Source: Escarpia spicata (Eukaryota; Annelida; Polychaeta; Sabellida; Siboglinidae). From it: a stretch of DNA of 64,000 nt. Positions 366-63,799 of the stretch are shown here, piece by piece; the first letter of the stretch is position 1, and each line of letters starts with the position of its first letter. The position numbers and the translations under genes were made by a program. The stretch spans positions 22,460,120 to 22,524,119 of the forward strand of contig OZ023208.1 in assembly GCA_963995525.1 (NCBI GenBank), given 5' to 3'. The notes under the pieces are model-generated. The model was not told where the DNA came from. It did no database searches and was given only the letters and a program-made list of their open reading frames with translations.

Positions 366-3300
366 ACTTCGATGCTGTTTGATATTAAACTTGGGGGAGA
401 GTCTGATGGCTTCATAAACTATCACTACCCTGTCTTGTCACCGCTTCCAATCAGACCATTCAAATATGTTCTTCCAGGTAAGCCTACTAGTACATAGTAA
501 GACAGGTGGTGGTGGTGGTGCTGGTGGTGGCGGTGATGATTGTGGTGGCAGTGGCAGTTGTGGTGGTGGTGGCTATGGTGGTGATGGTGGTAGCAGTGGT
601 GACTGTTATGGTGGTGTCAGTGGTGATTGTGGTGGTGGCAGTGGTGATTGTAGTGGTGGTGGTGGTGGTGGCAGTGACAGTAGTGATTGTGGTGGTGGTG
701 GCAGTGGCTGTGGTGATTGTGGTGGTGGTGGTTTCAGTGGTGGTGGTGATTGTGGTGGTGGTGGTTTCAGTGGTGGTGGTGATTGTGGTGGTGGTGGTGG
801 TGGAGGTGGCAGTGATGATTATGGTTGTGGTGGTGGAGGTGGCAGTGATGATTATGGTTGTGGTGGTGGAGGTGGCAGTGGTGGTAGTGACAGTAGTGAT
901 TGTGGTGGTGGTGGCAGTGGCAGTGGTGATTGTGGTGGAGGTGGTGGTGGTGGTGGTGGAGGTGGCAGTGGCAGTGGTGATTGTGGTGGTGGTGGCTATG
1001 GTGGTGATGGTGGTAGCAGTGGTGACTGTTATGGTGGTGTCAGTGGTGATTGTGGTGGTGGCAGTGGTGATTGTAGTGGTGGTGGTGGTGGTGGCAGTGA
1101 CAGTAGTGATTGTGGTGGTGGTGGCAGTGGCTGTGGTGATTGTGGTGGTGGTGGTGATTGTGGTGGTGGTGGTTTCAGTGGTGGTGGTGATTGTGGTGGT
1201 GGTGGTTGTGGTGGTGGAGGTGGCAGTGATGATTATGGTTGTGGTGGTGGAGGTGGCAGTGATGATTATGGTTGTGGTGGTGGAGGTGGCAGTGATGATT
1301 ATGGTTGTGGTGGTGGAGGTGGCAGTGGTGGTAGTGACAGTAGTGATTGTGGTGGTGGTGGCAGTGGCAGTGGTGATTGTGGTGGAGGTGGTGGTGGTGG
1401 TGGTGGAAGTGATGATTGTGGTGGTGGAGGTGGCAGTGGCAGTGGTGATTGTGCTGGTGGTTGTGGTGGTGGCAGTGGCTGTTGTGGTGGAAGTGGCTGT
1501 GGTGGTGGCGGTGGTGATTGTGGTGGTGACTGGTGGTGGTGATTGTGGTGGTGGTAATTGTGGTGGTAGTGGTGGTGGTGGTGGTGGTGGCAGTGGTGAT
1601 TGTGGTGGTGGTGATTGTGGTGGCAGTGGTGATTGTGGTGGCGGTGGTGATTGTGGTGTCAGTGGTGATTGTGGTGGCAGTGCTGGTGGTGGTGGTGCTG
1701 GTTATTGTGGTGGTGGTACGGTGGTGTGCGTGTGTGCGTGCATGCATGCATCTGTATAAATCATTAGTAAAAAATAATTCTTCATAAAAAACAATTGTAC
1801 TTGAATATTAAATCCATCTTTATATTTGATAAATGTTATATAACCAAACAAATTATAATTAAGAACATGTGTTTACCAACTTCCTTTCAAAACAGGTTTC
1901 ACTCATTGATGCAATGTTCACCCATTGTTTGTTGTAGCTTTGCCAGCCTCTGCTGCTCCAGATACCCAAGACTTCCTCTGTCAGTTGTGTATCCTTTCTG
2001 CCTCCAGACAAGTTGCTTTCTACAGTTTATCCATATTGTATGTTTATTTCTAGATCAGTTTAATTATACCCTTTCACTCTACAAACAATGTTGGGACATC
2101 CAAGCCCAATCATGTTGTAAACATGGTGGGACAGGCTATTTGATGTTAAAAACAATGTGGGACATCAAAACCATTTCATGCTGTACATGTGTGTGTTTCA
2201 TGTTAAGTTTAGTGCTGAAAGAACTATAAGAATGTGTGACAGTCTCTCAAACAAACATTAATGTGTTTCTTTGTCCTTAACATCACAGACTCTCCCAACT
2301 GGATTGTCTTTCAACCAAACATTGTCATCGATGCCAAATTAGGTATGTTGTTTATCAAGTTTTATGATCTATGTATGTATCTATGTATTGATATATGTGT
2401 AAATAAATAAATACTGTGGCCCAGTAAACTATCATTCTCTTATGTTATCGCTGTTGAAAACATTAAAATGAACAGTAACTGTTCATTGGCATTGAAGTGA
2501 ATAACTGTAGTTGATTGTCAAACTTATTAAATATATTTCGTATTCACTTATCCAAAGATTAAGTTACCTGTGTAGAGTCATTTTCTTGAAATGTTGTTTC
2601 AGTAATCTGATTGTGGGAATTTGTTTGGCAGGTTATGTGTGGTACGTGCAGCTACGACTTGAGCCACTCACTGCCATGCTACCCGACAAGGTAGGTTCTC
2701 TTGGTGTGTTTTACTTGGCATGGTGGTTTCTTCCATGTGTGTTTGTTCTCCCTTGCAGTGTCAGTGGATAGACTGTATCCATGTGTGTTTGTTCTCCTTT
2801 GCGTTGTCAGTGGATAGACTGTATCCATGTCTGTTTGTTCTCCCTTGCAGTGTCAGTTGGTAGACTGTATCCATGTCTGTTTGTTCTCCCTTGCAGTGTC
2901 AGTGGATAGACTGTATCCACGTGTGTTTGTTCTCCCTTGCAGTGTCAGTTGGTAGACTGTATTCATGTGTGTTTGTTCTCCCTTGCAGTGTCAGTGGATA
3001 GACTGTATCCACGTGTGTTTGCTCTCCCTTGCAGTGTCAGTGGATAGACTGTATCCATATGTGTGTGTTCTCCCTTGCAGTGTCAGTTGATAGACTGTAT
3101 CCATGTGTGTTTGCTCTCCCTTGCAGTGTCAGTTGATAGACTGTATCCACGTGTGTTTGTTCTCCCTTGCAGTGTCAGTTGATAGACTGTATCCACGTGT
3201 GTTTGTTCTCCCTTGCAGTGTCAGTTGATAGTCTGTATCCACGTGTGTTTGTTCTCCCTTGCAGTGTCAGTTGATAGACTGTATCCATGTGTGTTTGCTC

Positions 3301-6300
3301 TCCCTTGCAGTGTCAGTGGATAGACTGTATCCACGTGTGTTTGTTCTCCCTTGCAGTGTCAGTGGATAGACTGTATCCACGTGTGTTTGCTCTCCCTTGC
3401 AGTGTCAGTGGATAGACTGTATCCATATGTGTGTGTTCTCCCTTGCAGTGTCAGTTGATAGACTGTATCCATGTGTGTTTGCTCTCCCTTGCAGTGTCAG
3501 TTGATAGACTGTATCCACGTGTGTTTGTTCTCCCTTGCAGTGTCAGTTGATAGACTGTATCCACGTGTGTTTGTTCTCCCTTGCAGTGTCAGTTGATAGT
3601 CTGTATCCACGTGTGTTTGTTCTCCCTTGCAGTGTCAGTTGATAGACTGTATCCACGTGTGTTTGCTCTCCCTTGCAGTGTCAGTGGATAGACTGTATCC
3701 ACGTGTGTTTGTTCTCCCTTGCAGTGTCAGTTGATAGTCTGTATCCACGTGTGTTTGTTCTCCCTTGCAGTGTCAGTTGATAGACTGTATCCATGTGTGT
3801 TTGCTCTCCCTTGCAGTGTCAGTGGATAGACTGTATCCACGTGTGTTTGTTCTCCCTTGCAGTGTCAGTGGATAGACTGTATCCACGTGTGTTTGCTCTC
3901 CCTTGCAGTGTCAGTGGATAGACAGTATCCATATGTGTGTGTTCTCCCTTGCAGGGTCAGTTGATAGACTGTATCCATGTGTGTTTGCTCTCCCTTGCAG
4001 TGTCAGTTGATAGACTGTATCCATGTGTGTTTGCTCTCCCTTGCAGTGTCAGTTGATAGACTGTATCCATGTGTGTTTGCTCTCCCTTGCAGTGTCAGTT
4101 GATAGACTGTATCCATGTGTGTGTTTGTTCTCCCTTGCAGTGTCAGTTGATAGACTGTATCCATGTGTGTTTGCTCTCCCTTATAGTATAAATTGATAGA
4201 CTGTATCCATGTGTGTTTGCTCTACCTTGCATTGTCAGTTGATAGACTGTATCCATGTGTGTTTGTTCTCCCTTGCAGTGTCAGTTGATAGACTGTATCC
4301 ATGTGTGTGTGTTCTCCCTTGCAGTGTCATTTGATAGACTGTATCCATGTGTGTTTGCTCTCCCTTGCAGTGTCAGTTGATAGACTGTATCCATGTGTGT
4401 TTGCTCCCCCTTGCAGTGTCAGTTGATAGACTGTATCCATGTGTGTTTGCTCTCCCTTGCAGTGTCAGTTGATAGACTGTATCCATGTGTGTTTGTTCAC
4501 CCTTGCAGTGTCAGTTGATAGACTGTATCCATGTGTGTTTGTTCACCCTTGCAGTGTCAGTTGATAGACTGTATCCATATGTGTGTGTTCTCCCTTGCAG
4601 TATCAGTTGATAGACTGTATCCATGTGTGTTTGTTCTCCCTTGCAGTGTCAGTTGATAGACTGTATCCATATGTGTGTGTTCTCCCTTGCAGTGTCAGTT
4701 GATAGACTGTATCCATATGTGTGTGTTCTCCCTTGCAGTGTCAGTTGATAGACTGTATCCATGTGTGTTTGCTCTTCCTGATAGTATAAATTGATAGACT
4801 GTATCCATGTGTGTTTTCTCTACCTTGCAGTTTCAGTTGATAGACTGTATCCATGTGTGTTTTCTCTCCCTTGCAGTTTCAGTTGATAGACTGTATCCAT
4901 ATGTGTGTGTTCTCCCTTGCAGTGTCAGTTTATAGAGTGTATCCATGTGTGTTTGTTCTCCCTTGCAGTGTCAGTTGATAGACTGTATCCATGTGTGTTT
5001 GCTCTCCCTTATAGTATAAATTGATAGACTGTATCCATGTGTGTTTTCTCTCCCTTGCAGTTTCAGTTGATAGACTGTATCCATGTGTGTTTGTTCTCCC
5101 TTGCAGTGTCAGTTGATAGACTGTATCCATGTGTATTTGCTCTCTTTGACAGTATCAATTGATAGACTGTATCCATGTGTGTTTTCTCTCCCTTGCAGTT
5201 TCAGTTGATAGACTGTATCCATGTGTGTTTGCTCTCCCTTGCAGTGTCAGTTGATAGACTGTATCCATGTGTGTTTGCTCTCCCTTATAGTATAAATTGA
5301 TAGACTGTATCCATGTGTGTTTGTTCTCCCTTGCAGTGTCAGTTGATATACTGTATCCATGTATGTTTGCTCTCCCATGCAGTGTCAGTTGATAGACTGT
5401 ATGCATGTGTGTTTGTTCTCCCTTGCAGTGTCAGTTGACAGACTGTATCCATGTGTGTTTGCTCTCCCTTATAGTATAAATTGATAGACTGTATCCATGT
5501 GTGTTTTCTCTCCCTTGCAGTTTCAGTTGATAGACTGTATCCATGTGTGTTTGTTCTCCCTTGCAGTGTCAGTTGATAGACTGTATCCATGTGTGTTTGC
5601 TCTCCCTTATAGTATAAATTGATAGACTGTATCCATGTGTGTTTTCTCTCCCTTGCAGTTTCAGTTGATATACTGTATCCATGTGTGTTTGTTCTCCCTT
5701 GCAGTGTCAGTTGATAGACTGTATCCATGTGTATTTGCTCTCTTTGACAGTATCAATTGATAGACTGTATCCATGTGTGTTTGCTCTCCCTTGCAGTGTC
5801 AGTTGATAGACTGTATCCATGTGTGTTTGTTCTCCCTTGCAGTGTCAGTTGATAGACTGTATCCATGTGTGTTTGCTCTCCCTTATAGTATAAATTGATA
5901 GACTGTATCCATGTGTGTTTTCTCTCCCTTGCAGTTTCAGTTGATAGACTGTATCCATGTGTGTTTGTTCTCCCTTGCAGTGTCAGTTGATAGACTGTAT
6001 CCATGTGTGTTTGCTCTCCCTTATAGTATAAATTGATAGACTGTATCCATGTGTGTTTTCTCTCCCTTGCAGTTTCAGTTGATAGACTGTATCCATGTGT
6101 GTTTGTTCTCCCTTGCAGTGTCAGTTGATAGACTGTATCCATGTGTATTTGCTCTCCCTTATAGTATCAATTGATAGACTGTATCCATGTGTGTTTGCTC
6201 TCCCTTGCAGTGTCAGTTGATAGACTGTATGCATGTGTGTTTGTTCTCCCTTGCAGTGTCAGTTGACAGACTGTATCCATGTGTGTTTGCTCTCCCTTAT

Positions 6301-7908
6301 AGTATAAATTGATAGACTGTATCCATGTGTGTTTTCTCTCCCTTGCAGTTTCAGTTGATAGACTGTATCCATGTGTGTTTGTTCTCCCTTGCAGTGTCAG
6401 TTGATAGACTGTATCCATGTGTGTTTGCTCTCCCTTATAGTATAAATTGATAGACTGTATCCATGTGTGTTTTCTCTCCCTTGCAGTTTCAGTTGATATA
6501 CTGTATCCATGTGTGTTTGTTCTCCCTTGCAGTGTCAGTTGATAGACTGTATCCATGTGTATTTGCTCTCTTTGACAGTATCAATTGATAGACTGCATCC
6601 TTGTGTGTTTGCTCTCTCTATTGCAGTGTCAGTTAATAGACTTCCTGCTCTTGCGCCATGACAGCAAGAAGGTGATCCTACTCGTGTGTAAGGACATGTT
6701 GTTACCTGATGGTCAGGCGACTCTCACAACCATCGCTAGCATCTTCAACAAGCTCAACCGGGTCTACTGGAAATACCTGCAGGACCAGGGCCAATCTCTG
6801 GTGAGTTTATTGATAGTTCCAACACATCAGCAGTCTTATTTTTTGTTCTAAAGGGTGGTCGCACATGTCCCCGGAAACATATAGCATGATGTATTGGTTT
6901 CTTGTGGTTTTGTCGTTACTGTGTGTAGGGGTGGAAATAAATCACTCCAGTGGTGCCACCAGTTGTGTGGTGCAAGTATTATGCAGAGACGAATGATGAG
7001 CATTTGCTGTGTTTTGTAGCCATATTGGACTACATAAGACCATAAATCTGCTGGGATGGTGGGGTGTTGCTGTGTGCTGTATTGAGTTGCAGTGTGCTGG
7101 ATTGAGTTGTTATGTGTGCTGTATTGAGGTGCTGTGTGCTGCATTGAGTTGTCATGTGTGCTGTATTGAGTTGTCATGTGTGCTGTATTGAGTTGCCCTG
7201 TGTGCTGTATTGAGTTGTCATGTGTGCTGCATTGAGTTGCCCTGTGTGCTGTTTTGAGTTGTTATGTGTGCTGTATTGAGTTGTTGTGTGCTATATTGAG
7301 TTGCCCTGTGTGATGTATTGAGTTATCGTGTGATGTATTGAGTTGCCCTGTGTGCTGTATTGAGTTGCTATGTGCTGTATTAAGTTGGTGTGTGCTGTAC
7401 TGAGTTGTCATGTGTGCTGTATTGAGTTGTTGTGTGCTGTACTGAATTGCCCTGTGTGCTGTATTGTATTGTCATGTGCTGTATTGAGTTGCCCTGTTTA
7501 CTGTATTGAGTTGCTGTGTGCTGTATTGAGTTGTCATGTGCTGTATTGAGTTTCATGTGTGCTGTATTGAGTGTTGTTCCACAGTTGACTGAGGGCGCGG
7601 GCCGGGCCGAGCAGACTCACCCACAGCGGGGCCAGCCAATCATTGACCAGTCAGACATGTACACACACGTCTTCTCTGTATTCGCAGACTGTGAGGTGAG
7701 ACCTGGACACATAGACAGTCACATGCACATATACATGCAGGCACACATACACAAGCATGCACGCACGCAGGACACATAGACAATCGCATGCACGTACGCA
7801 TGCATGCACGCAGGACATATAGGCAGTCACATGCACGTACGCACGCACGCATGCACACATCATGCCATACAGACACACACATGCATACCTGCACACACAT
7901 ATAGACGT

Positions 7909-7979: not shown

Positions 7980-10900
7980 TATTGTATAGTGTGTACATCT
8001 ACCTACAGCATCCAGAACATTTATTTGGATGAGATGATATACAAGACTTATTACTATTACAATTACTAACAAACATGGCCATCTTTCTGGATGGCCCTAC
8101 GTACGTACACATGAAGGAACAGTTTTTTTACCAGACTTCTAACAAAGGTTACATAATTTAGAACCTTTGCTCACAATGTCTTGCATGTTTTCATGATTGT
8201 TCAAAGTTATGTCAATCATTAACCTACTGATGGATGGCTTATGTGATTTTGAACAATCAGAGGAAACACACTGCATTGCAGACATCATCAAGACATTATC
8301 AAATTGTCAGTACTACAACCAAGGGGGAATTAAAAAAAGCATTTCAACAATTAGTTCATGTTGTGGTTGTTGCTTGCAGGGGGTCAGCTATAAGTTCATG
8401 TTGTTGTTGCTTGCACAGGAGGTCTGCTATAAGTTCATGTTGTGGTTGTTGTTTGTAGGTGATCAGCTGTAAGTTCATGTTGTTGTTGTTGCTTGCACAG
8501 GAGGTCAGCTATAAGTTCATGTTATGGTTGATGTTTGTAGGAGATCAGCTGTAAGTTCATGTTATGGTTGATGTTTGCAGGAGATCAGCTGTAAGTTCAT
8601 GTTATGGTTGATGTTTGCAGGAGATCAGCTGTAAGTTCATGTTATGGTTGATGTTTGCAGGAGATCAGCTGTAAGTTCATGTTATGGTTGATGTTTGCAG
8701 GAGATCAGCTGTAAGTTCATGTTATGGTTGATGTTTGCAGGAGATCAGCTGTAAGTTCATGTTGTGGTTGTTGTTTGCAGGAGGTCAGCTATAAGTTCCT
8801 GGTGGCCGTGCTTATTGAATATGTCCGTTCCCTCAACCATTTCCAGATTCCTGTCCATGTAAGTAACATGAAGGATATCCAACAAAGCAGTTTTTTTAAG
8901 CTTTCACTTGTGAATCATCTCTTGTTTGAATTCTACAGTTCCAGTGCCCGATTCTGGACAGTAAAATGCACCAACAAAAGATGTATGTCTTCTTTATTAG
9001 TTAGCAGAATACCATAACTTAACATATGTGATGGTGAATAAATTTATCATGGTACGTGGAAGAACTGAATGATCATCTCAGCAATCTGGTGTTGATGTTG
9101 AAGGAACATGCCAACATATCTGCCAAGTGTGAAGGATTATAACATCCTTCAAACAATACCGTATGTTATTTAATAATGAGATCCATTGACATAAGCTAGG
9201 AAAGTTAGTAACCGATATGAATCTGAGGAAATGTAAGATTTACAAATATACACACGTGTGGTTAATTCTATAAAAGTAAGACATTGGTTGGCATTGACGC
9301 ATGGTCAAACTTTGTTTTATGGTCACCTCAGTAATATAGCCACCTCACAATTAAGGTCACCCTTGTATAGACCCAGATTGTTTCCCAAAATTCTGTAATA
9401 GAAAAGTTTAGGAAATTAGTCGCACTAATATGGTCACCTGACTATTCAGGTCACTCTCGTCCATGCACGTGGGTGACCTTAATGGCAAGGTTCCACTGTG
9501 TCTGCATTCGATATCTGATTGTGTTTTATGGAGTGCAGTAGCACAGTGAATAGAGCATCAGACTCAATCGCGAGAACCCGGGTTCGAATCCTCAGCTGCC
9601 GTGTCGAACCTTGGGCAAATTTTGTCACTCTACGTTGCTCCAGTTCACTCAGCTGCATGACTGAGTACCTGGCTATAGACAGCGGTGGATATTTGTGTGC
9701 AGATACATTTCGCGCATTAATTGCTGAATGCTTCCCAGAGAAGTAGAGATGATGTTCAATTGAATAGGTCTGCCAGGGGTAAAGTGTAAAGCGCTTTGAG
9801 TAGTCCTGAGGACTGGACACTGCGCCATATAAGAACTGACCTTGTTGTTGTGTTCTTGCAGCACTACCTGTATGAGTTGATCATTAACACCCTGGTTCAA
9901 CACAGTCGCTTCTATCAGCTGCACCAGTTCCTACAGTACCACGTACTGAGCGACTCCAAGCCACTGGTATGACAACAGTTATGGCTCGTCACATCATTTA
10001 TTTAGTGGAATAAACCAGGAAGTATTTTTATTTAGTAATGTTAACCATAAAATGGATGATTTGATTTGTTTTAGTTCTTGACATGTCATCTTAAAATATG
10101 TAACAGTGTATAAAAACAGTGGCATTTAATCTAAGACTTTCAACCCCCTATATATACGGTAACTTTGTTTTCATAAGGTCACATATGTATAATACTGAAA
10201 AAAGCCTGCACTATATAGATGCCCTTATGTAAAGTGATCAAGAATTTTTTGGGAAAATACAGTGCCAAATTAAACAACATTTTAACCCCCTTAATCAAAT
10301 TAATTAATTTTTTTTAGTATAAAACATCAGTATTTCCATATCTCTTGGAATTTCAGTAACTTATAATTGCTTATCACAATGCTATTGTTATTAGGCTAAA
10401 AGTAAGTTATATATTTAAACATATGATTTATATCAACCAATCAAATGATTATCATGAAGCTTTCTGAGTGACCACTGTGTCATATACTGATGTGTGCACA
10501 TGCATGCTTGCATGTTGCAGGCGTGCCTCTTGTTGTCATTAGAGAGTGTCTATGCACCGGCTCATCAACTGGCACTTGACATGCTGAAGGTAACGTTTCA
10601 CCTCTGTCTGTATAAGTTGTAAATTAGATCCTCCTTTTTATGGCCTTGAAAAGGTCATTCTAAAGGTCCTAATTTTCACTTTAAATTAGATCTAGGCCCG
10701 AATCTATATTTATATATTTCAACAAAGGCGGAACGGATTGTGTATTGCACAGCGGTATACGCATCTTTAATCAAATAATGACATTTGATCACCGAATAAA
10801 TACGTCACGCGTGGTGGGCCTCTGAATAAAATTTCACTGTAATATATAATACAGGTAGGTGTATTATAGTGTTGTAATTTTGTATTGTAATTGGGAAAGG

Positions 10901-13900
10901 TCTTAATTTGTTACATATTTAAAGGTCTTAAATTTGATGAGCCCTAAGCATCATTATCTGTTTTAATGTTTGTTTTCAACTGTGCCCGCGAGGTAACTGT
11001 AGATTGTGGTTGTTGGGCTCCTAGATTGTTTTCAACTGTGCCCGTGAGGTAACTGTAGATTGTGGTTGTAGTGATCTAGTTGTGTTTTCAACTGTGCCCG
11101 TGAAGTAACTAGATTGTGGTTGTAGTGATCTAGTTGTGTTTTCAACTGTGCCCGCGAAGTAACTAGATTGTGGTTGTAGTGATCTAGTTGTGTTTTCAAC
11201 TGTGCCCGCGAGGTAACTGTAGATTGTGGTTGTAGTGATCTAGTTGTGTTTTCAACTGTGCCCACGAGGTAACTGTAGATTGTGGTTGTAGTGATCTAGT
11301 TGTGTTTTCAACTGTGCCCGTGAGGTAACTGTAGTTTGTGGTTGTAGTGATCTAGTTGTGTTTTCAACTGTGCCCGCGAGGTAACTATAGATTGTGGTTG
11401 TAGTGATCTAGTTGTGTTTTCAAATGTGCCCACGAGGTAACTGTAGATTGTGGTTGTAGTGATCTAGTTGTGTTTTCAACTGTGCCCGTGAGGTAACTGT
11501 AGTTTGTGGTTGTAGTGATCTAGTTGTGTTTTCAACTGTGCCCGCGAGGTAACTATAGATTGTGGTTGTAGTGATCTAGTTGTGTTTTCAACTGTGCCCG
11601 CGAGGTAACTGTAGATTGTGGTTGTAGTGATCTAGTTGTGTTTTCAACTGTGCCCGTGAGGTAACTGTAGATTGTGGTTGTAGTGATCTAGTTGTGTTTT
11701 CAACTGTGCCCGTGAGGTAACTGTAGTTTGTGGTTGTGGTGATCTAGTTGTGTTTTCAACTGTGCCCGCGAGGAAACTGTAGATTGTGGTTGTAGTGATC
11801 TAGTTGTGTTTTCAACTGTGCCCGCGAGGTAACTGTAGATTGTGGTTGTAGTGATCTAGTTGTGTTTTCAACTGTGCCCGCGAGGTAACTGTAGATTGTG
11901 GTTGTAGTGATCTAGTTGTGTTTTCAACTGTGCCCGTGAGGTAACTGTAGATTGTGGTTGTAGTGATCTAGTTGTGTTTTCAACTGTGCCCGCGAGGTAA
12001 CTGTAGATTGTGGTTGTAGTGATCTAGTTGTGTTTTCAACTGTGCCCGCAAGGTAACTAGTTTGTGGTTGTAGTGATCTAGTTGTGTTTTCAACTGTGCC
12101 CGCAAGGTAACTAGTTTGTGGTTGTAGTGATCTAGTTGTGTTTTCAACTGTGCCTGCAACGTAACTGTAGTTTGTGTTTGTAGTGATCTAGTTGTTTTTT
12201 CAACTGTGCCCGCAAGGTAACTGTAGTTTGTGGTTGTAGTGATCTAGTTGTGTTTTCAACTGTCCCCCCGAGGTTACTGTAGATTGTGGTTGTAGTGATC
12301 TAGTTGTGTTTTCAACTTTGACTGCGAGGAATCTGTAGATTGTGGTTGTAGTGATCTAGTTGTGTTTTCAACTGTGCCTGCGAGGAATCTGTAGATTGTG
12401 GTTGTAGTGATCTAGTTGTGTTTTCAACTGTGCCTGCAAGGTAACTGTAGTTTGTGGTTGTAGTGATCTAGTTGTGTTTTCAACTGTGCCTGCGAGGAAT
12501 CTGTAGATTGTGGTTGTAGTGATCTAGTTGTGTTTTCAACTGTGCCTGCAAGGTAACTGTAGTTTGTGGTTGTAGTGATCTAGTTGTGTTTTCAACTGTG
12601 CCTGCAATGTAACTGTAGTTTGTGTTTGTAGTGATCTAGTTGTGTTTTCAACTGTGCCCGCAAGGTAACTGTAGTTTGTGGTTGTAGTGATCTAGTTGTG
12701 TTTTCAACTGTGCCCGCAAGGTAACTGTAGTTTGTGGTTGTAGTGATCTAGTTGTGTTTTCAACTGTGCCCACGAGGTAACTGTAGATTGTGGTTGTAGT
12801 GATCTAGTTGTGTTTTCAACTGTGCCCGCGAGGTAACTGTAGATTGTGGTTGTAGTGATCTAGTTGTGTTTTCAACTGTGCCCGCGAGGTAACTGTAGAT
12901 TGTGGTTGTAGAAATCTAGTTGTGTTTTCAACTGTGCCCGCGAGGTAACTGTAGATTGTGGTTGTAGAAATCTAGTTGTGTTTTCAACTGTGCCCGCAAG
13001 GTAACTGTAGTTTGTGGTTGTAGTGATCTAGTTTTTTTTTCAACTGTGCCCGTGAGGTAACTGTAGATTGTGGTTGTAGTGATCTAGTTGTGTTTTCAAC
13101 TGTGCCCGCAAGGTAACTGTAGTTTGTGGTTGTAGTGATCTAGTTGTGTTTTCAACTGTGCCCGCAAGGTAACTGTAGTTTGTGGTTGTAGTGATCTAGT
13201 TGTGTTTTCAACTGTGGCCACGAAGGTAACTAGATTGTGGTTGTAGTGATCTAGTTGTGTTTTCAACTGTGCCCGCAAGGTAACTGTAGATTGTGGTTGT
13301 AGTGATCTAGTTGTGTTTTCAACTGTGCCCGTGAGGTAACTGTAGATTGTGGTTGTAGTGATCTAGTTGTGTTTTCAACTGTGCCCGCAAGGTAACTGTA
13401 GTTTGTGGTTGTAGTGATCTAGTTGTGTTTTCAACTGTGCCCGCAAGGTAACTGTAGTTTGTGGTTGTAGTGATCTAGTTGTGTTTTCAACTGTGGCCAC
13501 GAAGGTAACTAGATTGTGGTTGTAGTGATCTAGTTGTGTTTTCAACTGTGCCCGCAAGGTAACTGTAGATTGTGGTTGTAGTGATCTAGTTGTGTTTTCA
13601 ACTGTGCCCGTGAGGTAACTGTAGATTGTGGTTGTAGTGATCTAGTTGTGTTTTCAACTGTGCCCGCGAGGAAACTGTAGATTGTGGTTGTAGTGATCTA
13701 GTTGTGTTTTCAACTGTGCCCGTGAGGTAACTGTAGATTGTGGTTGTAGTGATCTAGTTGTGTTTGCAGAGACTCTCGACTGCGAATGACGAGATCATTG
13801 AAGTGCTGCTCTCAAAGCAACAACTCTTGACAGCTCTCAGGTAATGTGTATTTCTAATTCACCAGCAATAAAAGTCACAATAATTTGTAATTCATGCTAT

Positions 13901-15407: not shown

Positions 15408-16340
15408 ATGAGCCTGATGGACAACTATTGAGTGCCATAGTTGTGTGACTGTACGGTTCCACATTGTGGGGCTACCTTGTGCCCAAATCGTGTGGCTGTT
15501 GGGTGCCCAGATTGTGGACAGCCTTGTGCCCAATTTGTGTGGCTATTGGGTGCCCAGATTGTGGGGCTGCTTTTTGTCCAAGTCATGTGGCTGTTTGGTA
15601 CCCAGATTGTGCCCAAGTCATGTGGCTGTTGGGCACCCATATTGCATTGCTGCCTTGTACCCAAGTTGTGTGGCTGTTGGGCTCCTAGATTGTGGGGCTG
15701 CTTTGTGCCCAAGTCATGTGGCTGTTGGGTGCCCAGATTGTGGGGCTGCGTTGTGTCCAGATTATGTCGCCTTGTATTACGTGGAAATAATGCAGCCTAT
15801 AGGTTTCATTCACATATTTCCATTCTACAACATTCCTTCCATGAATTAATTAATTTGACGTGTACATGCTCTGTATGTACTAACTAGGTATGCACAAGTT
15901 AACTTACCTTAAGTCTGCCAAATGGTGTTCGTAAAGCACATATGACCCAGGTGTATATAGTTTGATAACCCAATCATTTCAATCAAACTACCATTTAACG
16001 CCAAACTGAAGGAGTTTCTGGAACTTGATAATGTAATCGAACCTTTACAGAAAATTGTTTAGACATTAACTAGGGCAAGTGCAATTTTTCTTACCATTTG
16101 TCGTAGTTTCATTCTTAAATAAAATGTTTGATTAGTGCATTTACGGAAGTCTATAATGCCATATTTATTTAACGTTATCTACATTTTGTAGAGTTGTTTC
16201 GTGTACAAAAGTATTTATAAAATAGCACGGTAGAGTGCTTCCCCTGGCGGTGGAGAGGGTAACTTAGTTATAATGTATCAGGTGCTACCATCTGGTGAAC
16301 ATAATAAAACTGTTGACAATTCACTTGTTGCATGTTATTA
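15408..16340 (+). other. RMC1: RMC1 3' UTR with polyadenylation signals
   Basis: After the stop there is no further exon. AATAAA occurs at 16118-16123 and at 16313-16318; the latter is followed by a T/G-rich stretch (TTGACAATTCACTTGTTGC) fitting a cleavage region near 16335. The transcript end is inferred only. Confidence 0.55.
15436..15770 (+). repeat. About 48-bp minisatellite in RMC1 3' UTR
   Basis: Imperfect units combine GCCCAAGTCATGTGGCTGTT with GGGTGCCCAGATTGTGGGGC. Roughly seven copies follow the stop codon within 30 bases. The open frames across it on both strands are a by-product of repetition. Confidence 0.85.
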
Positions 16341-20408: not shown

Positions 20409-20725
20409 CCTGTCCCACTGTCAGCAGATTGCAGCAGATTCTCTGAGAAAACTGCTGCCCCCTTTCCACTAAGATGGAGGCCATCTCTCATGTACATATC
20501 TTCCCTCCCAACAAAGTATCCCCATAAATCTGTGAATCCCACCCCCTCTTCTTCACACATCTGCTCAGCTAGTGCATTGATCGCCATCCTCTTGCAGTTT
20601 CTATACGTTGCCCCCCTTCCTCCCATTACTGGCAAAATTCCTGACAAAATAACCTGTTCGACTCTCGTCTTCTTTAGCTTCCTCACTAACTGTCTATACT
20701 TCTGTACTATCGCAGTTGATGGTGG
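20390..20725 (-). CDS. LINE ORF1, C-terminal SGNH/esterase-like domain (partial)
   Basis: The frame reads VILSGILPV, then N-CKRMAINALAEQMC, then GVGFTDLWGYF, and ends in DGLHLSGKGAAVFSENL. The last part is the Asp-x-x-His block of SGNH hydrolases that occurs in ORF1 of many CR1/L2 elements. The Ser block is not found in the window, so the N-terminal part is missing or decayed. The open frame continues upstream past the GTG at 20686 to about 20725. It ends 19 bases inside ORF2. Function in the element (lipid or membrane association of the RNP) is unproven. Confidence 0.75.
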   Translation of the reverse strand, partial: PPSTAIVQKYRQLVRKLKKTRVEQVILSGILPVMGGRGATYRNCKRMAINALAEQMCEEEGVGFTDLWGYFVGREDMYMRDGLHLSGKGAAVFSENLLQSADSGTGCIYLN

Positions 20726-54761: not shown

Positions 54762-55588
54762 TCCACATTTGTGACACTCTTTATCACGTGTGCACTTGCA
54801 TTCGTCACTTGTATGGCCCTGTAAGCCACAGCGAGTACACCGATCGTGACGTTGCCGAGTGTTAGATTGTCTGTTGACCGGTTTACGAGTGTGCGCGTTT
54901 CTTGTCTATCTGTGCGTTTCGAATGGTATGCGTGCTGACCTGTTGAATGCAGCATACACTGTGTTGTTTGCTGTGCCACGAGCCATGTCTTTAGCCTGGC
55001 GTTCTGACGATTCTCTCGTTTACGCTATCTCAATCGCCCGGTTTAGCGTGAGATCTTTTCCTGCGGCCAGGAGTTTGGTACGCAACGAATCAGAGCGACA
55101 CCGATCGATTACTTGATCTCTGATGTACTCATCGACATTGTTCCCGTAATCGCATGACGATGCCAGCTGTCGTAACCGTGTTACGAACTGCCCGACGGTT
55201 TCGCCTTCATGCTGTTCAGCGCGATGAAACGTGCCTGTTGACTGTTGTACGGGACGTTTGATTTAGGCGTGACATAGTCCGTCAGTAGTTCTTTTGAAAC
55301 GACGACGACGTACCTGTTTCTGTTTCTGGGAATGTATCCTGTACGCCTTCGCCCGCGGTGTGTAATAGCAAATCACGTTTTTGCTTGTCATCTGTGCATC
55401 CTGACGCACTGGCCATCCTGTCAAAGTTTCGTATCCACTTTTTCCAACGTTCAGCCGTTGTTGAAGGCTCGTTTTGTGCATCGAAGGGCGGTAAGTTGGG
55501 CCACATTGATCGGAACAGCCATGTTGATTCGGTACGGTAGGCGGTTGCTTACTTGTAGGCTTAGCAGGTTCGCTTAATTCTCGTCGCC
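54700..55588 (-). pseudogene. Gypsy gag remnant with two zinc knuckles
   Basis: Broken frames from 55588 read LPPFDAQNEPSTTAERWKKW, FDRMASASGCTDDKQKRDLL and LLHTAGEGVQDTF, the usual gypsy gag start. Near 54850-54730 two CCHC boxes are seen: CTRCGLQGHTSDEC and CHKCGVRGHFAVMC. Several frame changes lie between, so gag is dead. Confidence 0.85.
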
Positions 55589-55590
55589 AT

Positions 55591-56609: not shown

Positions 56610-56714
56610 GTGCTCACACCACACTGTCATATACGACATAAAAAATATGGCAAGCTATTGAGTGTTGGCGACTATATTATATAGAATTTATGCAAATTAA
56701 CTACTCACCCATAT

Positions 56715-57060
56715 TCACATTTTTATTTATTCCAAATGCATCGTATATGTCAAAAATCAATTCTAGAATTTAAAATTACTCAAATGTGTCATTTGACAAC
56801 AAAGATATGGCAGTATGTTGTACTAAGATCTGTATGACAGAATTGACCGGCAGTGGTGCTGAAGCTCCGGTAGCCCCTCCAATATTAATTTCGTTCCCGC
56901 GCCACTGGCAATACCCGTTTGGAAACCCCCTAATATGTCAATCCTGGGTGCGCCCCTGCAAATCGTCGTAGGTAATGGCGAACGGACACTGTATACTGGA
57001 ATTGTGGTTCGAGTCACTAACGTGTGGTCCGAGTCCATTACTTCGCCACAGTAATCGTTA
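56715..57060. repeat. Dispersed repeat, partner of 49445-49810, with inner insertion
   Basis: Same word order as the 49.4-kb copy. An extra block at about 56856-56965 (AGCCCCTCCAATATTAATTT ... CCTGGGTGCGCCCCTGC) interrupts it and may be another small element. Confidence 0.65.
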
Positions 57061-57690: not shown

Positions 57691-60600
57691 ATGCTTAACT
57701 TCTTGCACATGTGGGGATTGGCTGCTGAGGCTACCTTATCAACAACAGCATCTTGGGATTTGTATGAAACCATCCAAGCTCTTTTCCAGGTAAATATGTT
57801 TTTTGCATGTCTCCAAATATATCTGTTCATCAAATGCATCAATCTCCATGACGGAATAAACACTGCTCTCAAAATTACTTGCAACACTCAGGATGCGCAA
57901 ATGTACATAATGCCGTTGTCACTGTGCAATTTTCGTAAGACGGCAGCTTTAAATGATCTTTTTATGTCGTACATATATAGTATGTTTAAGCATATTGTCA
58001 ATATCATTGTTTGAAAGTGCATAAATCATTTGTTAATAATGAACACATCACATTTTATCAATGGGTGAGGATACGGTCTATAACTAATCATTATTAACTA
58101 TGGGCCACATGAATTGCATTACAAGGTGTATTAGTTTATGAATACACATACATGTATTCATTTAGTATATTCCAGATAGTATTAGCACAATAATATGTAT
58201 GTATGCGTGTAGTAAAATTAATGTTTGTATACATTGCACATGTATAATGTATTTTATTGCTGGCATTGTTTAGGCCCCAAGTTACCACTTGGTGTTTGAA
58301 GCTGCTCTCATACTCTGGATTGTCGGCTTGCTCTTTACCAAGAGTTATACTGCCAAGTATGACAAATTGACACTCACTGACAAAGTAAGTGTTTCATTTC
58401 ATATTATCTTGATAATGGATTAGGTTTAAGGATCACCTCAGAATGTCAATGTCCAATATCAGACAAAATTGCTTTCATCTGCCCTCAACCCCCACCCGTT
58501 CTCTCAGACGAAAATTTGTGTACATTGATAATATTTACCAATACAGAGCCCACGCTAGGGTTTGTGGAAAGGGGTAATGTACCCCCTGCTGTTGAAAACA
58601 AGGGGTAAAAAATGAAATCAAGGGGTAATTTGTTCAGGTTTTCAACCGCGTATGCGAGTGTCCATCTGTATGTGTGAGGGCGTGTATGTTTTTAGTCAGA
58701 ACAATGATAGCCTGTGATTGTTTTAACCACACAGACAATGTTGTCTTCCAATGAAGTTCTGTAAACAGCTGGCATGAGTAGTTCTCGGATGATGAATGAT
58801 AAGTAGAAATGTACATTTAGTACATCGTTTGCACGTGTCATACAGATATGACATTTTCTTCAGGTATCAATTGATCTTTTATATAATTAAGGCCAGACAT
58901 GGCGGGTGGATAGGATTATTTTATAATTTATACAAATAGTCCAATTTAGTCTACCCGAATTATATAATTTAGAGGTATGTAATTGTCATACAAGTAAACT
59001 CTTTAATGATAACAAACTTAAAAGTTATCATAATCTGGCAGAAAACCATTTTGAGTATGTTTGTCAAAAAACACCATGTCACCTGGGGTGTCTAGCCTTA
59101 AGATTGTCATAAAAAATATGCAAAAGATAACCAATTTATTTTAATTTTATTTATTTAAAAGTTCCAGCTGCTGCCCTGCAAATATCCATGTTCTGTTAAT
59201 GAGTGTCCAATATGTTTAACTTTCTACACAACTTGCCCTGCGCCTGTGAATGTGCATGTTCTGTGGCTGTCCAACACATTAGTTATGCAGCTAAACAATA
59301 TTCTTATCTCGTTTCTTGTTTACAATGCAACCATTCCACATAGACAAACATACTCTTACAATATTTTATGCGCCTTTGTTGTTAAAACATTGCCGCGGTT
59401 TGCATCCGCTGTGAGCGATAATACAAGCCAGTGGCGTTCCCAGAAAACGTCGAAGACGCTCACCGCCGATGCAGTCCATGGTGCCAGTTGGACTGCAAAC
59501 GCATACGCATATAATGATACATAATATTACTTGCAAGTCCACACATTGTCGAGAAGTTAAAATAAATAAGTTTTTTTAATTTAAAAAGCAAACCCAGTTA
59601 TCGTTTTCTTTCTGTAATTCTGACCTATATTATAACCCCGCCATGAAAATAACCACATAGTAGTCTTAGTTGTAGAACTTCCAAACTTCTTCACAACATG
59701 TCAACAGTATCTACGACACATGTATACAATTATATATATCATGTGTAAAATACACTTACTATCTTATAAAGATCACTATTTACAAAAAACGTAAGATGTG
59801 TTTGTGTTATGGCAACATTTTGCAATTGCTACGACGATGTATTACTAACTATGTCTATGACTTACAAAACTCCCTGCCCCCTGGACAAGGCTCGCGGCAT
59901 GCATCTGGTTCACGGGGAGCGCGCGCTTACAGGGATTGGTATTACCAATTGGATCACTAATAAAATGTATCAGTTTCCAGTCCATTGTTCACAAAACTTC
60001 ACCCGCTATCATAATTTTTGCCGATGCAGTTTTCTGGCGCGGCAAACCCCGACTATGTGCACCAGGGCAGGTTAAAAATATGTCACTGCCGATGCGTAGA
60101 TTCATGCAGTGGTGTCCAAAATAATGCGTGAAATGCCAAAAATCATGCATATATACGCATAATATTATGCCAACGGGAACTCTGCCAATATAATAACAGT
60201 ATCAGTCAGAAGCATAAAATATCGATGTCCGACACTAGACGAAACTGCCCCAGACATCCCTCTCTCCCAAACGGAAGTAATTTTGTTTGATATCGGACAT
60301 CAACGTTCTGAAATTATCCCTTAGGCTAACCCTAATGTGTGCCATTGATAAAGAGATGCGTGGTGTTCTTGCTTCTAAGTACTGTCCTCTTCACTACTCA
60401 GACACCAACCTGTATCCACAAAGCAGGGCATAGTTGCCCTGGAAAACACAACTCTAAAATTTTGCAAATTTTGATTCAACATAACATCATGACAACTTAT
60501 GGATGCTTGAATGGATAAAAGTTCCGGTTTCTCTGTTGTTGGGAATGGTATGGTACATAGTTACCTCTCGAGAAACTTTCAGTGGCCTTCTTCAGCAGAC

Positions 60601-63600
60601 TGAAATTACAGTTGTGTCACATGAATTACGTCATGTGACATAAGCTGGAGAAAGTAGTTGGTGATATTGTTGGTTGTTGCAGGAGAAATCTATTGACAAT
60701 GTTGTTTGTTGCAGGAGAAAACTGTTGACAATGTTGTTGTCAGAGAAACCTGTTGACAATGTTGTCTATTGCAGGAGAAAGCTGACTTGGTGGAAGAGTG
60801 GCAGCCAGAGCCTCTTGTCCCTAACGTGCCAGAGGATGACCCAGAACTGATCAATATTCGCACAAGGATTGTTGACAGGTTTTTACCTATTTAATGAACT
60901 TAAGAAACAGTTTGATGTTATAAGTTTTAAGCTTATAAAAGAAATGGATGCAGTAGTTATGACAGTCGTAATGTTATGATGACCACTCATGAGTGTTCGT
61001 GTTCCTGATGCAGCAAGATTTATTGATATGCTGTGCTCGCACAGGAACAAGAATACCCATGGAGTTGTTAAGGACCTGACGAATGTGTGTGCATGGCTGC
61101 CAAAATGATGATTGGTCATCGTCTGGGGAGAAGAACTACCGTGATAGTGAACCAGTAGTGCAGAGATAACATAATTTTCCATATACTGGTCACAAGTCTA
61201 GGTACTATGTTAATTATAACAAGCTTTTAACAATGCTCTTTAACTGGCCACATCCATAAAATTACCACAAGACGATGTTGTTATTATTTTTTTGCAATTT
61301 CAGCAAGCTGGGGAAATATGTGACTCTGAACGGCCAGAAGTGCCTCAACATGGCTTCTCTCAACTTCCTGGCAATGGTTGGCAAAGAAGTCATAGAGGTA
61401 AGTTTAAAGGTTACACAGCGTCCTGCAATGGTTGGCAAAGAAGTCGTAGAGGTACGTTTAAATGTTACACAACTTACTGGCAATGGTTGTCAAATAAAAG
61501 TCATATTGGTGAGTTTAAATGTTACACAACTTCCTGGCAGTGGTTGGCAAACAAGTCATATAGATAAGCTTAAAGGTGACACATAAAACAAAATACGGCC
61601 TGAATTTCTAATTAAAAATATAATGCAAATGATTTGGTGACAATGTGAATTTTAAAATGGGTTGGCTCCTTGCAGAATTCCTGTGAAGGTTTTTCCTTAG
61701 TTAATGTAAATCTTTTAGTGTAGAATTTATTTATCTTAGCCAATCAGCAACATGAAAGTTAGTTAGCTATTATATTTATTAACACTCAGTATTTATTTTG
61801 TAGGAAGAAGCTGTGAAATCATTGAAGAAATATGGTGTTGGATCCTGTGGACCACGTGGCTTCTACGGCACTGTCGGTAGGTAAAGCATACGTTAGCACC
61901 TGTGGTTGCTGTTCTTTGTGTTGTTGTTACACATGTACACTTGTAATATGCTTTGTGTTGTTGCAGATGTACACTTGGAATATACTTTGTGTTGTTGCAG
62001 ATGTACACTTGGAATATACTTTGTGTTGTTGCAGGTGTACACTTGGAATATATATTGTGTTGTTACAGATGTACATTTGGAATATACTTTGTGTTGTTAC
62101 AGATGTACACTTGGAATATACTTTGTGTTGTTGCAGATGTACACTTGGAATATACTTTGTGTTGTTGCAGGTGTACACTTGGAATATACTTTGTGTTGTT
62201 GCAGGTGTACACTTGGAATATATGTTGTGTTGTTACAGATGTACATTTGGAATATGCTTTGTGTTGTTACAGATGTACACTTGGAATATACTTTGTGTTG
62301 TTACAGATGTACATTTGGAGGAAGAAGAGAAACTGGCACAGTTTATGGGCACTGAAGAAGCCATTGTTTACTCCTATGGCTTTGCAACTATTGCCAGTGC
62401 CATTCCGGCCTACTCCAAAAGGGGTGACGTCATATTCTGGTAGAATGGGTGTTCTAACAAATTACAAACAAAACTGTTGCAGTGATGAGGGTATGTATGG
62501 TTGTAGTGATCAAGTTGTGTTCTGGTTGCACTAATCAAGGTGTGTTTAAGTTGCCATCATGAAGGTGTGTTTTGATTGAAGTGATTAGGGTATGTTGGGT
62601 TGCTGTGATGACGATGTGTTTTGGTTGCAGTAATGAGAGTGTGTTTGGTTGCAATGACAGGGATGTGTTTTGGTTGCAGTGTCAAGGGTGTGTTTGGTTG
62701 CAGTGATAATGGTGTGTTTTGGTTGCAATGACAAGGGTGTGTTTGGTTGTAGTGATGAGGGTGTGGTTGGTAGAAGTGATGAGGGTGTAGTTGGTTGAAG
62801 TGATGAGGGTGTGTTTTGGCTGCAGTGATGAGGGTGTTTGGTTGCAGTGATCAGGATGTGTTTGGTTGCAGTGATGAGGGTATATTTGGTTGCAGTGATG
62901 AGGCTGTGTTTTGGTTGCAGTGGTGATGACATGTTTGGTTGCAGTGACAGGGGTGTGTTTTGGTTGCAGTGACAAGGTTGTGTTTGGTTGCAGTGATGAG
63001 GTGTGTTGTAATGATGAAGGTATGTTTGGTTGTACTGATAATGCAGTGACGAGAGTATGTTTGGTTGTAGTGATGAGGGTGTGGTTGGTTGAAGTGATGA
63101 GGGTGTGTTTGGTTGCAGTGATTAGGGTGTGTTTGGTTGCAATGATGAGTGTGCGGTTGGTTGAATTATGATGGTGTGTTTGGTTGCAGTGATGAGGGTG
63201 TGTTTGATTGCATTAATGAAGATGCTTTAGTTGCAATAATAATAAGGTAACTTCTTTTACACCTAAATCTTGAGATACCAAGCTCAGATGTGCATCAATA
63301 CAAATCTGTTAGTCAATCTCAGAATCAATAAGCCATATTAAAGACGTCAACAGAAGGATCGATATGCTAGGGAGTTAAGGTGGATACGCAAGTTTATAAA
63401 GTTTTTAAATAATGGCAAAATTATGTAATATTTTCAACTGATCTAACACTAAGAGGGAGCATATTGCAAAGTAGGTGCAGCAACAGAAAATACCCTAGTT
63501 CCAATATTAGTACTGGCTCTAGGAACAAAAAGTAAATCAGAACTAGATGATCGAAGCTGGATAAGCTTTTTTTACAGGGGTAAGCAATTAATATATATGT

Positions 63601-63799
63601 TGAAAGTATGTTTTGTTCCTGTGACAAGGTTGTGTTTTGTTGCTGTGACGAGGGTGTGTTTTGTTGCAGTGATGAGGGCGTGTGTTTCGCCATCCAGAAG
63701 GGCATTCAGGCAAGTCGTAGCAAGGTGAAATTATTCCGACACAACGACACAGCGGACCTTGAGAGATTGCTGGCTCTGCATGCCCACGAGGAAAGGAAG
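57691..63799 (+). CDS. SPTLC1: Serine palmitoyltransferase long-chain base subunit 1, N-terminal part, 7 exons
   Basis: SPTLC1 pairs with SPTLC2/3 in the ER membrane to condense serine and palmitoyl-CoA, the first step of sphingolipid synthesis. Exons: 57691-57789, 58274-58384, 60775-60878, 61304-61397, 61804-61876, 62307-62439, 63670-63799; phases agree and 248 codons are covered. The rest lies beyond 64000. Landmarks are [20 protein letters not shown], a membrane segment ([11 protein letters not shown]), [55 protein letters not shown] and [12 protein letters not shown]. The Cys in [10 protein letters not shown] corresponds to human Cys133, mutated in hereditary sensory neuropathy. The ATG at 57691 (A at -3) is preferred; 57709 is an alternative. 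The last donor (AAG-GTTGGT) is weak. Five junctions carry copies of themselves in flanking minisatellites. Confidence 0.95.
58385..60674 (+). other. SPTLC1 intron 2, unassigned content
   Basis: AT-rich DNA. Between about 59427 and 60185 there are related words (CCAGTGGCGTTCCCAGAAAA; GCCGATGCAGT twice; ACGCATAATATTATGCC and a looser inverted partner near 59510) that suggest a decayed DNA transposon, but clear ends were not found. Elsewhere nothing was recognised. Confidence 0.35.
60670..60774 (+). repeat. About 32-bp acceptor-spanning repeat (SPTLC1 intron 2)
   Basis: Three and a half units of TTGACAATGTTGTTTGTTGCAG followed by GAGAAA(A/T)CTGTTGAC. The real acceptor is TTGTCTATTGCAG, followed by exon GAGAAAGCTGACTTG, so each unit copies the pyrimidine tract, the AG and about 12 exon bases. 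One unit has lost the AG context (GTTGTCAGAGAAACC). Confidence 0.9.
61370..61566 (+). repeat. Donor-spanning tandem repeat (SPTLC1 exon 4 / intron 4)
   Basis: The end of exon 4 (GCAATGGTTGGCAAAGAAGTC, AUAGAG at its edge) plus its donor GTAAGTTTAAAGGTTACACA is repeated about three more times downstream with decay: GTCGTAGAG-GTACGT, GTCATATTG-GTGAGT and GTCATATAG-ATAAGC. Units are about 54-56 bp. Three of the four keep a GT donor. Confidence 0.92.
61925..62306 (+). repeat. 34-bp acceptor-spanning minisatellite, about 11 copies (SPTLC1 intron 5)
   Basis: The unit is ATGTACACTTGGAATATAC followed by TTTGTGTTGTTGCAG. The real junction is TTTGTGTTGTTACAG, then exon ATGTACATTTGGAGGAAG, so each unit carries the acceptor and about 12 exon bases. 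Units alternate GCAG and ACAG, and GATG and GGTG, in patterns that suggest block duplications. Confidence 0.95.
62470..63232 (+). repeat. About 24-bp acceptor-spanning minisatellite (SPTLC1 intron 6)
   Basis: The unit is GTGTGTTTTGGTTGCAG followed by TGATGAGG. The real junction is GTGTGTTTTGTTGCAG, then exon TGATGAGGGCGTGTGTTTC. About 30 imperfect copies occur; some replace TGATGAGG with TGACAAGG or TGAAGTGATGAGG. The array resumes after a LINE fragment at 63605-63669 and runs into the exon. Confidence 0.95.
63233..63600 (-). mobile_element. LINE E-family 3' UTR fragment inside the SPTLC1 array
   Basis: It matches 46247-46565 in order: AATAATAATAAGGTAACTTCT, ACCAAGCTCAGA, GATCTAACACTAAGAGGGAGC, GGTGCAGCAACAGAAAA and GGCTCTAGGAACAAAAAG. 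It continues with AAATCAGAACTAGATGATCG. It is 5'-truncated and lacks coding sequence. It splits the 24-bp array. Confidence 0.88.
63605..63669 (+). repeat. Last units of the 24-bp acceptor array (SPTLC1 intron 6)
   Basis: Three diverged units (GTTCCTGTGACAAGG; GTTGCTGTGACGAGG; the real GTTGCAG) lead into exon 7. Confidence 0.85.

Follow-up and report, generated by a model that had tools for sequence, protein, structure and literature searches.

Minisatellites spanning exon-intron junctions in the RMC1 and SPTLC1 genes of a vestimentiferan tubeworm

Where do tandem arrays come from whose repeat unit contains both a splice site and a piece of the adjoining exon, and are exon borders favoured places for their birth? 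A 64,000-nucleotide stretch of the Escarpia spicata genome, hereafter the window, raises this question in two of its genes, RMC1 and SPTLC1.

Arrays at the exon borders of RMC1 and SPTLC1

We placed the exons of RMC1 by homology to PDB 9l0d_C (E 4e-129) and those of SPTLC1 by homology to 6m4n_A (E 1.5e-87). The two genes are separated by about 42 kb, RMC1 starts ~11 kb upstream of the window, and the spliced frame is open across both. SPTLC1 shares 96% identity with Ridgeia piscesae, 90% with Lamellibrachia satsuma and 62% with Branchiostoma, and RMC1 is 67% identical to Branchiostoma, so that amphioxus was rejected as the source of this DNA. Scans of the window for tRNAs and against Rfam (gathering threshold) gave no matches.

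Tandem arrays were called with TRF over the window (Table 1), and every array named in a preliminary description of this DNA was recovered, with periods of 46, 40, 32, 34, 24, 54, 22 and 56. In six of the ten complex arrays of the two genes the unit extends across a junction to include 10-37 bases of true exon. Five of these arrays lie at acceptors, with 10-18 exon bases each, and the sixth joins an exon end to its donor (37 exon bases at donor 61397), just as the preliminary description had it. The highest copy number is that of u46, with 85 units arranged head to tail. The region 62470-63669 does hold a junction array, but not the single one reported, since it consists of two blocks separated by 389 bases of other sequence. 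Similarly, the 22-bp and 56-bp arrays said to run into an acceptor do abut it, but they end 12 and 4 bases short and contain no exon. Straddling and abutting arrays (n=8) occupy 8 of the 17 complete introns and complex arrays of any kind 9 of 17, so the statement that most introns are involved holds barely or not at all. Two arrays absent from the preliminary description, the GGT-rich one and that at 7744-7856, are both away from junctions.

Table 1. Exons and tandem arrays in the window, in order of position
Feature	Position	Strand	Basis	Remarks
RMC1 exon	366..477	+	homology	first inside window
GGT-rich array, RMC1 intron 1	505..1717	+	TRF	period about 30-33 bp; begins 27 bp past donor; not junction-derived
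RMC1 micro-exon, 42 nt	1938..1979	+	frame kept; closes gap in homology alignment	GTCAGT donor
RMC1 exon	2289..2342	+	homology	
RMC1 exon	2632..2690	+	homology	
u46, 46-bp x 85	2732..6642	+	TRF	straddles acceptor 6627; 16 bp exon; 99% of intron filled
RMC1 exon	6627..6800	+	homology	
u22, 22-bp	7071..7572	+	TRF	abuts acceptor (12 bp short); unit without exon
RMC1 exon	7585..7695	+	homology	
43-bp x 2.5 array, RMC1 intron 6	7744..7856	+	TRF	off junctions
u40, 40-bp x 11	8353..8798	+	TRF	straddles acceptor 8781; 18 bp exon
RMC1 exon	8781..8858	+	homology	
RMC1 exon	9862..9966	+	homology	borders without array
RMC1 exon	10521..10589	+	homology	
u56, 56-bp x 50	10971..13765	+	TRF	last part-copy reaches acceptor (abutting, 4 bp short); without exon
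RMC1 exon	13770..13840	+	homology	
RMC1 exon	14565..14719	+	homology	
RMC1 last exon	15319..15408	+	homology	with stop codon
SPTLC1 first coding exon	57691..57789	+	homology	
SPTLC1 exon	58274..58384	+	homology	
u32, 32-bp x 3.8	60668..60784	+	TRF	straddles acceptor 60775; 10 bp exon
SPTLC1 exon	60775..60878	+	homology	
SPTLC1 exon	61304..61397	+	homology	
u54, 54-bp x 4	61361..61583	+	TRF	straddles donor; 37 bp exon end + GTAAGT
SPTLC1 exon	61804..61876	+	homology	
u34, 34-bp x 11.7	61922..62319	+	TRF	straddles acceptor 62307; 13 bp exon
SPTLC1 exon	62307..62439	+	homology	
u24 block a, 24-bp x about 30	62476..63219	+	TRF	
u24 block b, 24-bp x 3	63609..63683	+	TRF	straddles acceptor 63670; 14 bp exon
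SPTLC1 exon	63670..63799	+	homology	

Origin and growth of the arrays

The repeat units copy local segments of 20-80 bp lying across an exon-intron border. At an acceptor the genuine exon edge forms the final unit, at a donor the first. In homologues (99 of RMC1, 120 of SPTLC1) alignments of the exon-edge segments contain few gaps or none. Conservation reaches 99-100% for the DVHL residues of SPTLC1 (n=120) and 100% and 96% for an L and an F of RMC1 (n=99), while conservation among RMC1 homologues is poor for the residues that open the u40 edge. The u40 site had residues inserted in 8 of 99 homologues and the u54 site in one of 120; the other four straddled junctions had none. The edges are thus old, conserved coding sequence, which indicates that the arrays came from the junctions and not the reverse.

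The claim that the units are unrelated to one another largely held, since for seven of the eight no further copy exists in the window at ≥75%; however, u24 resembles part of u56, and in 4 of 28 pairs the similarity of the units exceeded that of 100 shuffles at P ≤0.05, where chance would give about 1.4. When 1.5 kb of u46 was searched against the genome, with very common words skipped, the matches were the u46 array itself and a second array with a 22-bp unit (L006). Neither the window comparison of all units nor this search with u46 revealed related units at many unlinked places, as spread by a mobile element would leave them, and the u46 unit pattern had no matches in viral contigs. The exon-edge units, the conserved edges and the unit comparison all agree with the earlier proposal that each array was born locally from its own junction.

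Among 84 units u46 holds 33 distinct ones, organised by nested duplication; stretches of 390, 321 and 237 bp recur within it exactly, 18, 8 and 11 units apart. These long multi-unit duplications, seen in one assembled sequence, would fit recent change. In u34, identity is highest at a lag of 5 units. Local tandem duplication with nested growth appears well supported by these patterns. The first duplication may have occurred through end joining or replication slippage, and unequal exchange would account for growth and homogenisation. The inferred founder breakpoints show 5 nt of microhomology in each of two arrays, 2 nt in another and none in the remaining three; among random pairs, 0.7% share ≥5 nt, and 5% do so when a 3-nt wobble is permitted. 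Being mixed and partly expected in random pairs, it gives no single repair signature. DNA hairpins as seeds were discarded, with z between -1.6 and 1.8 against shuffles for the eight array stretches and four array-free acceptors; folded as single-stranded DNA, none of the eight array stretches was clearly more stable than its shuffles (z of -1.2 or higher). As for the transcripts, open frames and the protein models of other species suggest correct splicing. Splicing would still choose the outermost site, leaving most inner copies as neutral decoys, and the arrays are presumably tolerated because that site and the coding sequence stay intact. In our judgement these are probably junction-spanning minisatellites of the kind called 'mirages' in amphioxus, that is, local copies of border segments that later grew and were tolerated.

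Three other readings of the arrays were weighed. That the minisatellites came first and exons were later extended into them would explain why units match exon edges, but is scarcely credible given that these segments are nearly gap-free in homologues and that several of their residues are nearly invariant. An assembly artefact deserves a thought, since assembly of long arrays is difficult and may give wrong copy numbers; the distinct, nested units of u46, the presence of similar arrays on several chromosome-scale contigs, and the re-sequencing reported to uphold amphioxus PGBD5 tandem repeats of the same class (PMC3902484) make it highly improbable. We also regard it as very unlikely that selection keeps the arrays because decoy sites or intron length regulate splicing or expression. 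The AG is indeed intact in 82/84, 11/11 and 10/11 complete units of u46, u40 and u34 (2/3 in u32, 23/30 in u24 block a and 1/3 in block b; GT is intact in 3/4 units of u54). However, 27/46, 27/40 and 28/34 columns of these three units vary no more than the more variable of the two AG columns. Selection on the AG was dropped, since its columns are no more conserved than many others, as expected of neutral copies. Moreover, use of an inner site would break the frame or introduce a stop codon in almost every decoy; an open frame is retained in 1/82 cases for u46, 0/10 for u40, 0/3 for u32, 0/23 for u24 block a and 3/10 for u34.

Junctions among the minisatellites of the genome

A 40-mer taken across the junction recurs within 4 kb (≥28/40) at six of the 36 junctions; the figure was 1.1% for random non-array positions (n=1,259) and 0/6 for the junctions of a third gene, ELOVL. 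The check suggested in the preliminary description, a comparison with shifted junctions, did not bear out an excess: with all junctions shifted together, 10 of 11 shifts gave as many or more matches (5-17 per 32-36 junctions vs 6 observed). Arrays take up so large a share of the introns that this control is confounded. When we compared junction-crossing founders with a collapsed-gene null, 6 of 10 were observed in the window vs 0.7-0.95 expected (P 3e-5 to 1e-4, a value inflated because the window was flagged for its arrays). A version of the null requiring ≥12 exon bases was set aside because u32 carries just 10.

Outside the window, junction arrays affect 3 of the 14 SPTLC1 junctions counted downstream (the acceptor near 64320, the first there, lies outside this count) and 0 of 18 upstream RMC1 junctions (likewise for one donor near -5650). 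A wider sample comprised 78 exons chosen by Pfam family. For chaperonin, 41 of 46 matches were used (L014, L015 and L016 had long open frames with no introns seen, and two more were left out); for aldehyde dehydrogenase, 11 of 13 (of 81 candidates 13 had been scored; L044 and L045, also long open frames with no introns seen, were left out); for myosin, 26 of 78, hand-picked before the DNA was seen, mostly stop-free and spread over genes. Affected exons numbered 3/41, 1/11 and 3/26, respectively. Around the 78 exons we counted 36 distinct arrays of ≥2.5 copies, of which six cross a junction vs 1.3-2.3 expected (P 0.001-0.007). The P value is 0.007 with the 118-bp entry of L048, whose null is degenerate (p = 1), 0.001 without that entry and 0.003 without L048 altogether. 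At ≥2.0 copies 6 of 49 arrays cross a junction (P 0.015), and at ≥4.0 copies the excess has P 0.003. The sampled arrays are not fully independent, since L060/L092 and L051/L056 are overlapping loci or near-copies. An array of 2.2 copies shared by L019 and L042 falls out of the 36 and, at the 2.0-copy cut-off, enters once as intronic, L019 being read first. L006 was excluded from the counts because it was located through the array itself, and its gene is left unnamed because the exon peptide had no Pfam match. At L017 a single, non-tandem junction copy lies 1,159 bp away.

Junction-crossing arrays thus occur elsewhere in the genome, as had been anticipated, with 10 straddling cases at acceptors and 6 at donors over the window and the outside samples. 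This genome is rich in intronic minisatellites, and junction-crossing founders are over-represented among them several-fold, at donors and acceptors alike. A tie to splice sites, proposed earlier, stands as a founder excess, but not as a rule: 30 of the 36 sampled arrays lie away from junctions, so that junctions are preferred founding sites in a genome where intronic minisatellites abound anyway. A cause confined to acceptors or polypyrimidine tracts was abandoned after donor cases were found outside the window.

What lies behind the excess can be read in two ways. Chance combined with selection of the window would have very many intronic arrays, some of which fall at junctions, and 36 distinct arrays around 78 exons, the naive shifted-junction control, the unaffected upstream RMC1 junctions and the weaker outside P value at ≥2.0 copies all speak for it. 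Nevertheless, the collapsed-founder nulls, both in the window and in the exons chosen by Pfam (≥2.5 copies), make this reading unlikely. Alternatively, a mutational process at splice junctions, such as transcription- or R-loop-linked nicking or polymerase pausing at exon borders, might make them preferred birthplaces of tandem duplications. The founder excess in the window and outside it points this way, as do two sequence properties: G exceeds C on the coding strand in all eight units tested (skew 0.05 to 0.83), and the last 30 nt before 11 acceptors of array-free introns are rich in T and G and have a simpler sequence than 123 stretches from intron interiors (permutation P 0.01 for simplicity). 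On the other side stand the many sampled arrays off junctions, the eight of eight array stretches without clear single-stranded folding beyond shuffles, and the donors, which, being affected as well as acceptors, make a polypyrimidine cause insufficient. We hold such a process to be a tentative possibility.

Known systems and biological meaning

The amphioxus parallel drawn in the preliminary description is real: 'mirages' are minisatellite-like duplications of intron-exon boundaries, described in Adh3, the globins BflGb6 and BflGb9 and troponin C, with similar repeats in PGBD5 and with splicing reported as normal (PMC3087553, PMC3902484). As in those descriptions, the tubeworm units span the border in tandem, at its 5' or 3' end, vary in length and in many cases carry AG or GT. 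The differences are that the tubeworm is an annelid, that it reaches 85 copies vs the 6 and 3 units given for two BflGb6 haplotypes, and that six straddling arrays lie in 17 complete introns of two genes, with a measured excess over the null. Literature searches found no annelid report of junction-spanning minisatellites. Earthworm metallothionein genes also combine a large intronic minisatellite (monomers of 25-216 bp) with conserved splice sites, but the repeats are described as lying inside intron 1, an exon edge in the unit being unmentioned in that description (PMC12783039). The Rogers model of intron gain through tandem duplication of AG/GT (cited in PMC3087553) likewise involves tandem copies with splice signals in both; unlike it, the tubeworm arrays sit in existing introns, with no gained intron shown. 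Some units, in u40 and in L030 (78-bp units), hold an AG, a short exon piece and GTAAGT, the inner u40 units reading GTAAGT where the true exon has ATAAGT. Such units may be regarded as raw material for new exons and introns.

Until now, junction-spanning minisatellites have been known from a few lancelet genes; what is new here is their occurrence in an annelid at a measurable density, which turns a lancelet curiosity into something open to statistics. It is a speculative idea that in lancelets and annelids alike exon-intron borders are favoured minisatellite birthplaces, through a break process linked to splicing or transcription that adds decoy sites, intron length and ready-made mini-exons; if true, such a process could quite generally give rise to new introns and exons. 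Gene models in array-rich genomes may break at introns of this kind. For the tubeworm itself, the arrays offer a natural experiment in which the spliceosome would choose one acceptor among up to 85 near-identical ones, and they bear on how introns grow and how introns and exons may be born by tandem duplication.

Arrays at exon edges of RMC1 and SPTLC1

Homology places 12 RMC1 exons within the window, among them a 42-nt micro-exon; together they form the 3' end of the gene. Of SPTLC1, the window takes in coding exons one to seven. Complex arrays are present in nine of the 17 complete introns of these genes. For the RMC1 part, arrays account for 8,946 of the 13,923 bases of intron; for the SPTLC1 part the figures are 1,483 and 5,365. 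TRF recovered every array named in the preliminary description: six cross a splice junction and two end 4 and 12 bases before an acceptor. At acceptors, the straddling arrays reach 16, 18, 10, 13 and 14 bases into the exon, and the one at a donor covers 37 exon bases. A 40-mer spanning the junction recurs close by (at least 28/40) at six of the 36 RMC1 and SPTLC1 junctions, compared with 1.1% of 1,259 random non-array control positions and none of the six junctions of the ELOVL-type gene. Several exon-edge residues are nearly invariant across 99 RMC1 and 120 SPTLC1 homologues and gaps in these segments are few or absent; copying therefore ran from exon to array. At the edge of u40 (arrays are named by unit length) the first residues are poorly conserved among homologues.

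Outside the window we searched its own genome (1.06 Gb). Downstream SPTLC1 holds three further straddling arrays among 14 tested junctions, and a fourth array, of 17-bp units at donor 69405, has only ~5 exon bases and falls below the threshold at 27/40. No straddling array was found in upstream RMC1 at 18 junctions set by eye from tblastn ends.

Features in and around the window (window numbering, unless a contig of the same genome is named)
Feature	Position	Strand	Remarks
54-bp array (L007)	-17813 to -15092		upstream past RMC1, away from junctions
57-bp array (L008)	-5544 to -4666		upstream in RMC1 intron, away from junctions
RMC1 micro-exon	1938-1979		42 nt, placed by homology
24/48-bp array	15475-15763		RMC1 3' flank, directly past stop codon
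LINE-type reverse transcriptase frame	17523-20420	minus	mobile element between genes (Pfam)
ELOVL-type elongase	~22.7-26.8 kb	minus	third gene, small control
20-bp-unit arrays (CAAGTAATTACACCGCATGT)	28003-28257, 28542-28672		outside RMC1 and SPTLC1 (TRF)
Integrase/zinc-knuckle frame	53655-54905	minus	mobile element between genes (Pfam)
Straddling array	donor 65668		downstream SPTLC1
Straddling array	donor 70217		downstream SPTLC1
Straddling array	acceptor 71011		downstream SPTLC1
78-bp-unit array (L030)	1587-2433 of locus		G000:C2, ~27.726 Mb; chaperonin gene; unit with AG, ~36 exon-end bases and GTAAGT
Single non-tandem copy (L017)	1,159 bp upstream in intron		G000:C5, ~4.4137 Mb; acceptor and ~25 exon bases
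22-bp x 31 array (L006)	1451-2138 of locus		G000:C6; ~16-base stretch common to u46 unit; stops at likely acceptor of unrelated open frame

Chance expectation in the window and outside it

Shifting the junctions, as the preliminary description proposed, was of no use as a control because arrays occupy so much of the introns: shifted sets gave 5-17 matches per 32-36 junctions vs 6 observed, and 10 of 11 shifts equalled or exceeded the observed number. Under a collapsed null, which reduces each array to one unit and counts the placements of an equally long founder that fall across a junction, six of ten window founders cross one against 0.7-0.95 expected (P 3e-5 to 1e-4 over six versions, one of which returned 0 of 20,000 placements). 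The original observation that arrays beside exons are non-random is borne out.

Since the window had been picked for its arrays, an outside test was needed. Exons were sampled by Pfam family, fixed before their DNA was viewed, with flanks of 500 or 1,500 bases per side (chaperonin, 41 exons; aldehyde dehydrogenase, 11; myosin, 26 picked by hand). A junction-crossing array occurs at seven of the 78 (L030, L035, L042, L048, L071, L075 and L093); that of L042 has 2.2 copies only, and the exact acceptor of L093 is uncertain. Every copy of the L030 unit looks like a mini-exon. Six of 36 distinct arrays with at least 2.5 copies straddle a junction vs 2.3 expected (P 0.007), or 1.3 expected when one degenerate entry is left out (P 0.001); with at least 2.0 copies the figures are 6 of 49 vs 2.5 (P 0.015). 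Pooled over all sets, the straddling cases comprise 10 acceptors and 6 donors. The suggested process tied to splice sites finds moderate support: the founder excess in the window and outside speaks for it, whereas 30 of the 36 outside arrays lie off junctions.

Founding, growth and tolerance

Founding by local tandem duplication over the exon-intron border is well supported. Microhomology at the inferred breakpoints is 5 nt in two arrays, 2 in one and none in three, so that end joining and template slippage are both possible. Growth by nested duplication of units is likewise well supported: copies offset by whole units in u46 match exactly over as much as 390 bp, and identity is highest between units 3, 6 and 9 apart in that array and 5 apart in u34. 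Exon-like sequence in u40 is kept in the last and some outer copies and the inner copies have common changes, as expected from homogenisation sparing array ends. The last acceptor or first donor is kept whole, which may be why such arrays are tolerated. Inner acceptors of u46 are intact in 82 of 84, yet AG columns showed no special conservation, and splicing at an inner site would preserve an open frame in just 1 of 82 cases there. Presumably, then, it is the outermost site that is spliced, or else transcripts from the other sites are cleared by nonsense decay.

Relatives and known parallels

SPTLC1 is identical at 237 of 248 positions to that of Ridgeia piscesae, an annelid of the family Siboglinidae whose assembly is given as 575 Mb (PMC9921365), smaller than the 1.06 Gb genome of the window. 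As the proteins differ too, the animal is probably a vestimentiferan other than Ridgeia piscesae. For RMC1, none of the 120 matches listed in either search is named as siboglinid and identity among them is at most 69%; perhaps arrays break the gene models. In the Lamellibrachia satsuma SPTLC1 model (P0221, 750 aa), the end of an exon is overrun and a 9-residue repeat follows that looks like an intronic minisatellite read as protein.

Minisatellite-like duplications of intron-exon boundaries, named mirages, are described in the amphioxus Adh3, globin and troponin C genes (PMC3087553, PMC3902484), and similar repeats in amphioxus PGBD5 (PMC3902484). Among the open-licence papers that literature searches listed, none describes such arrays in an annelid in its title or the opening of its abstract. 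The tubeworm arrays are an unusually rich case of this known kind, in a new phylum.
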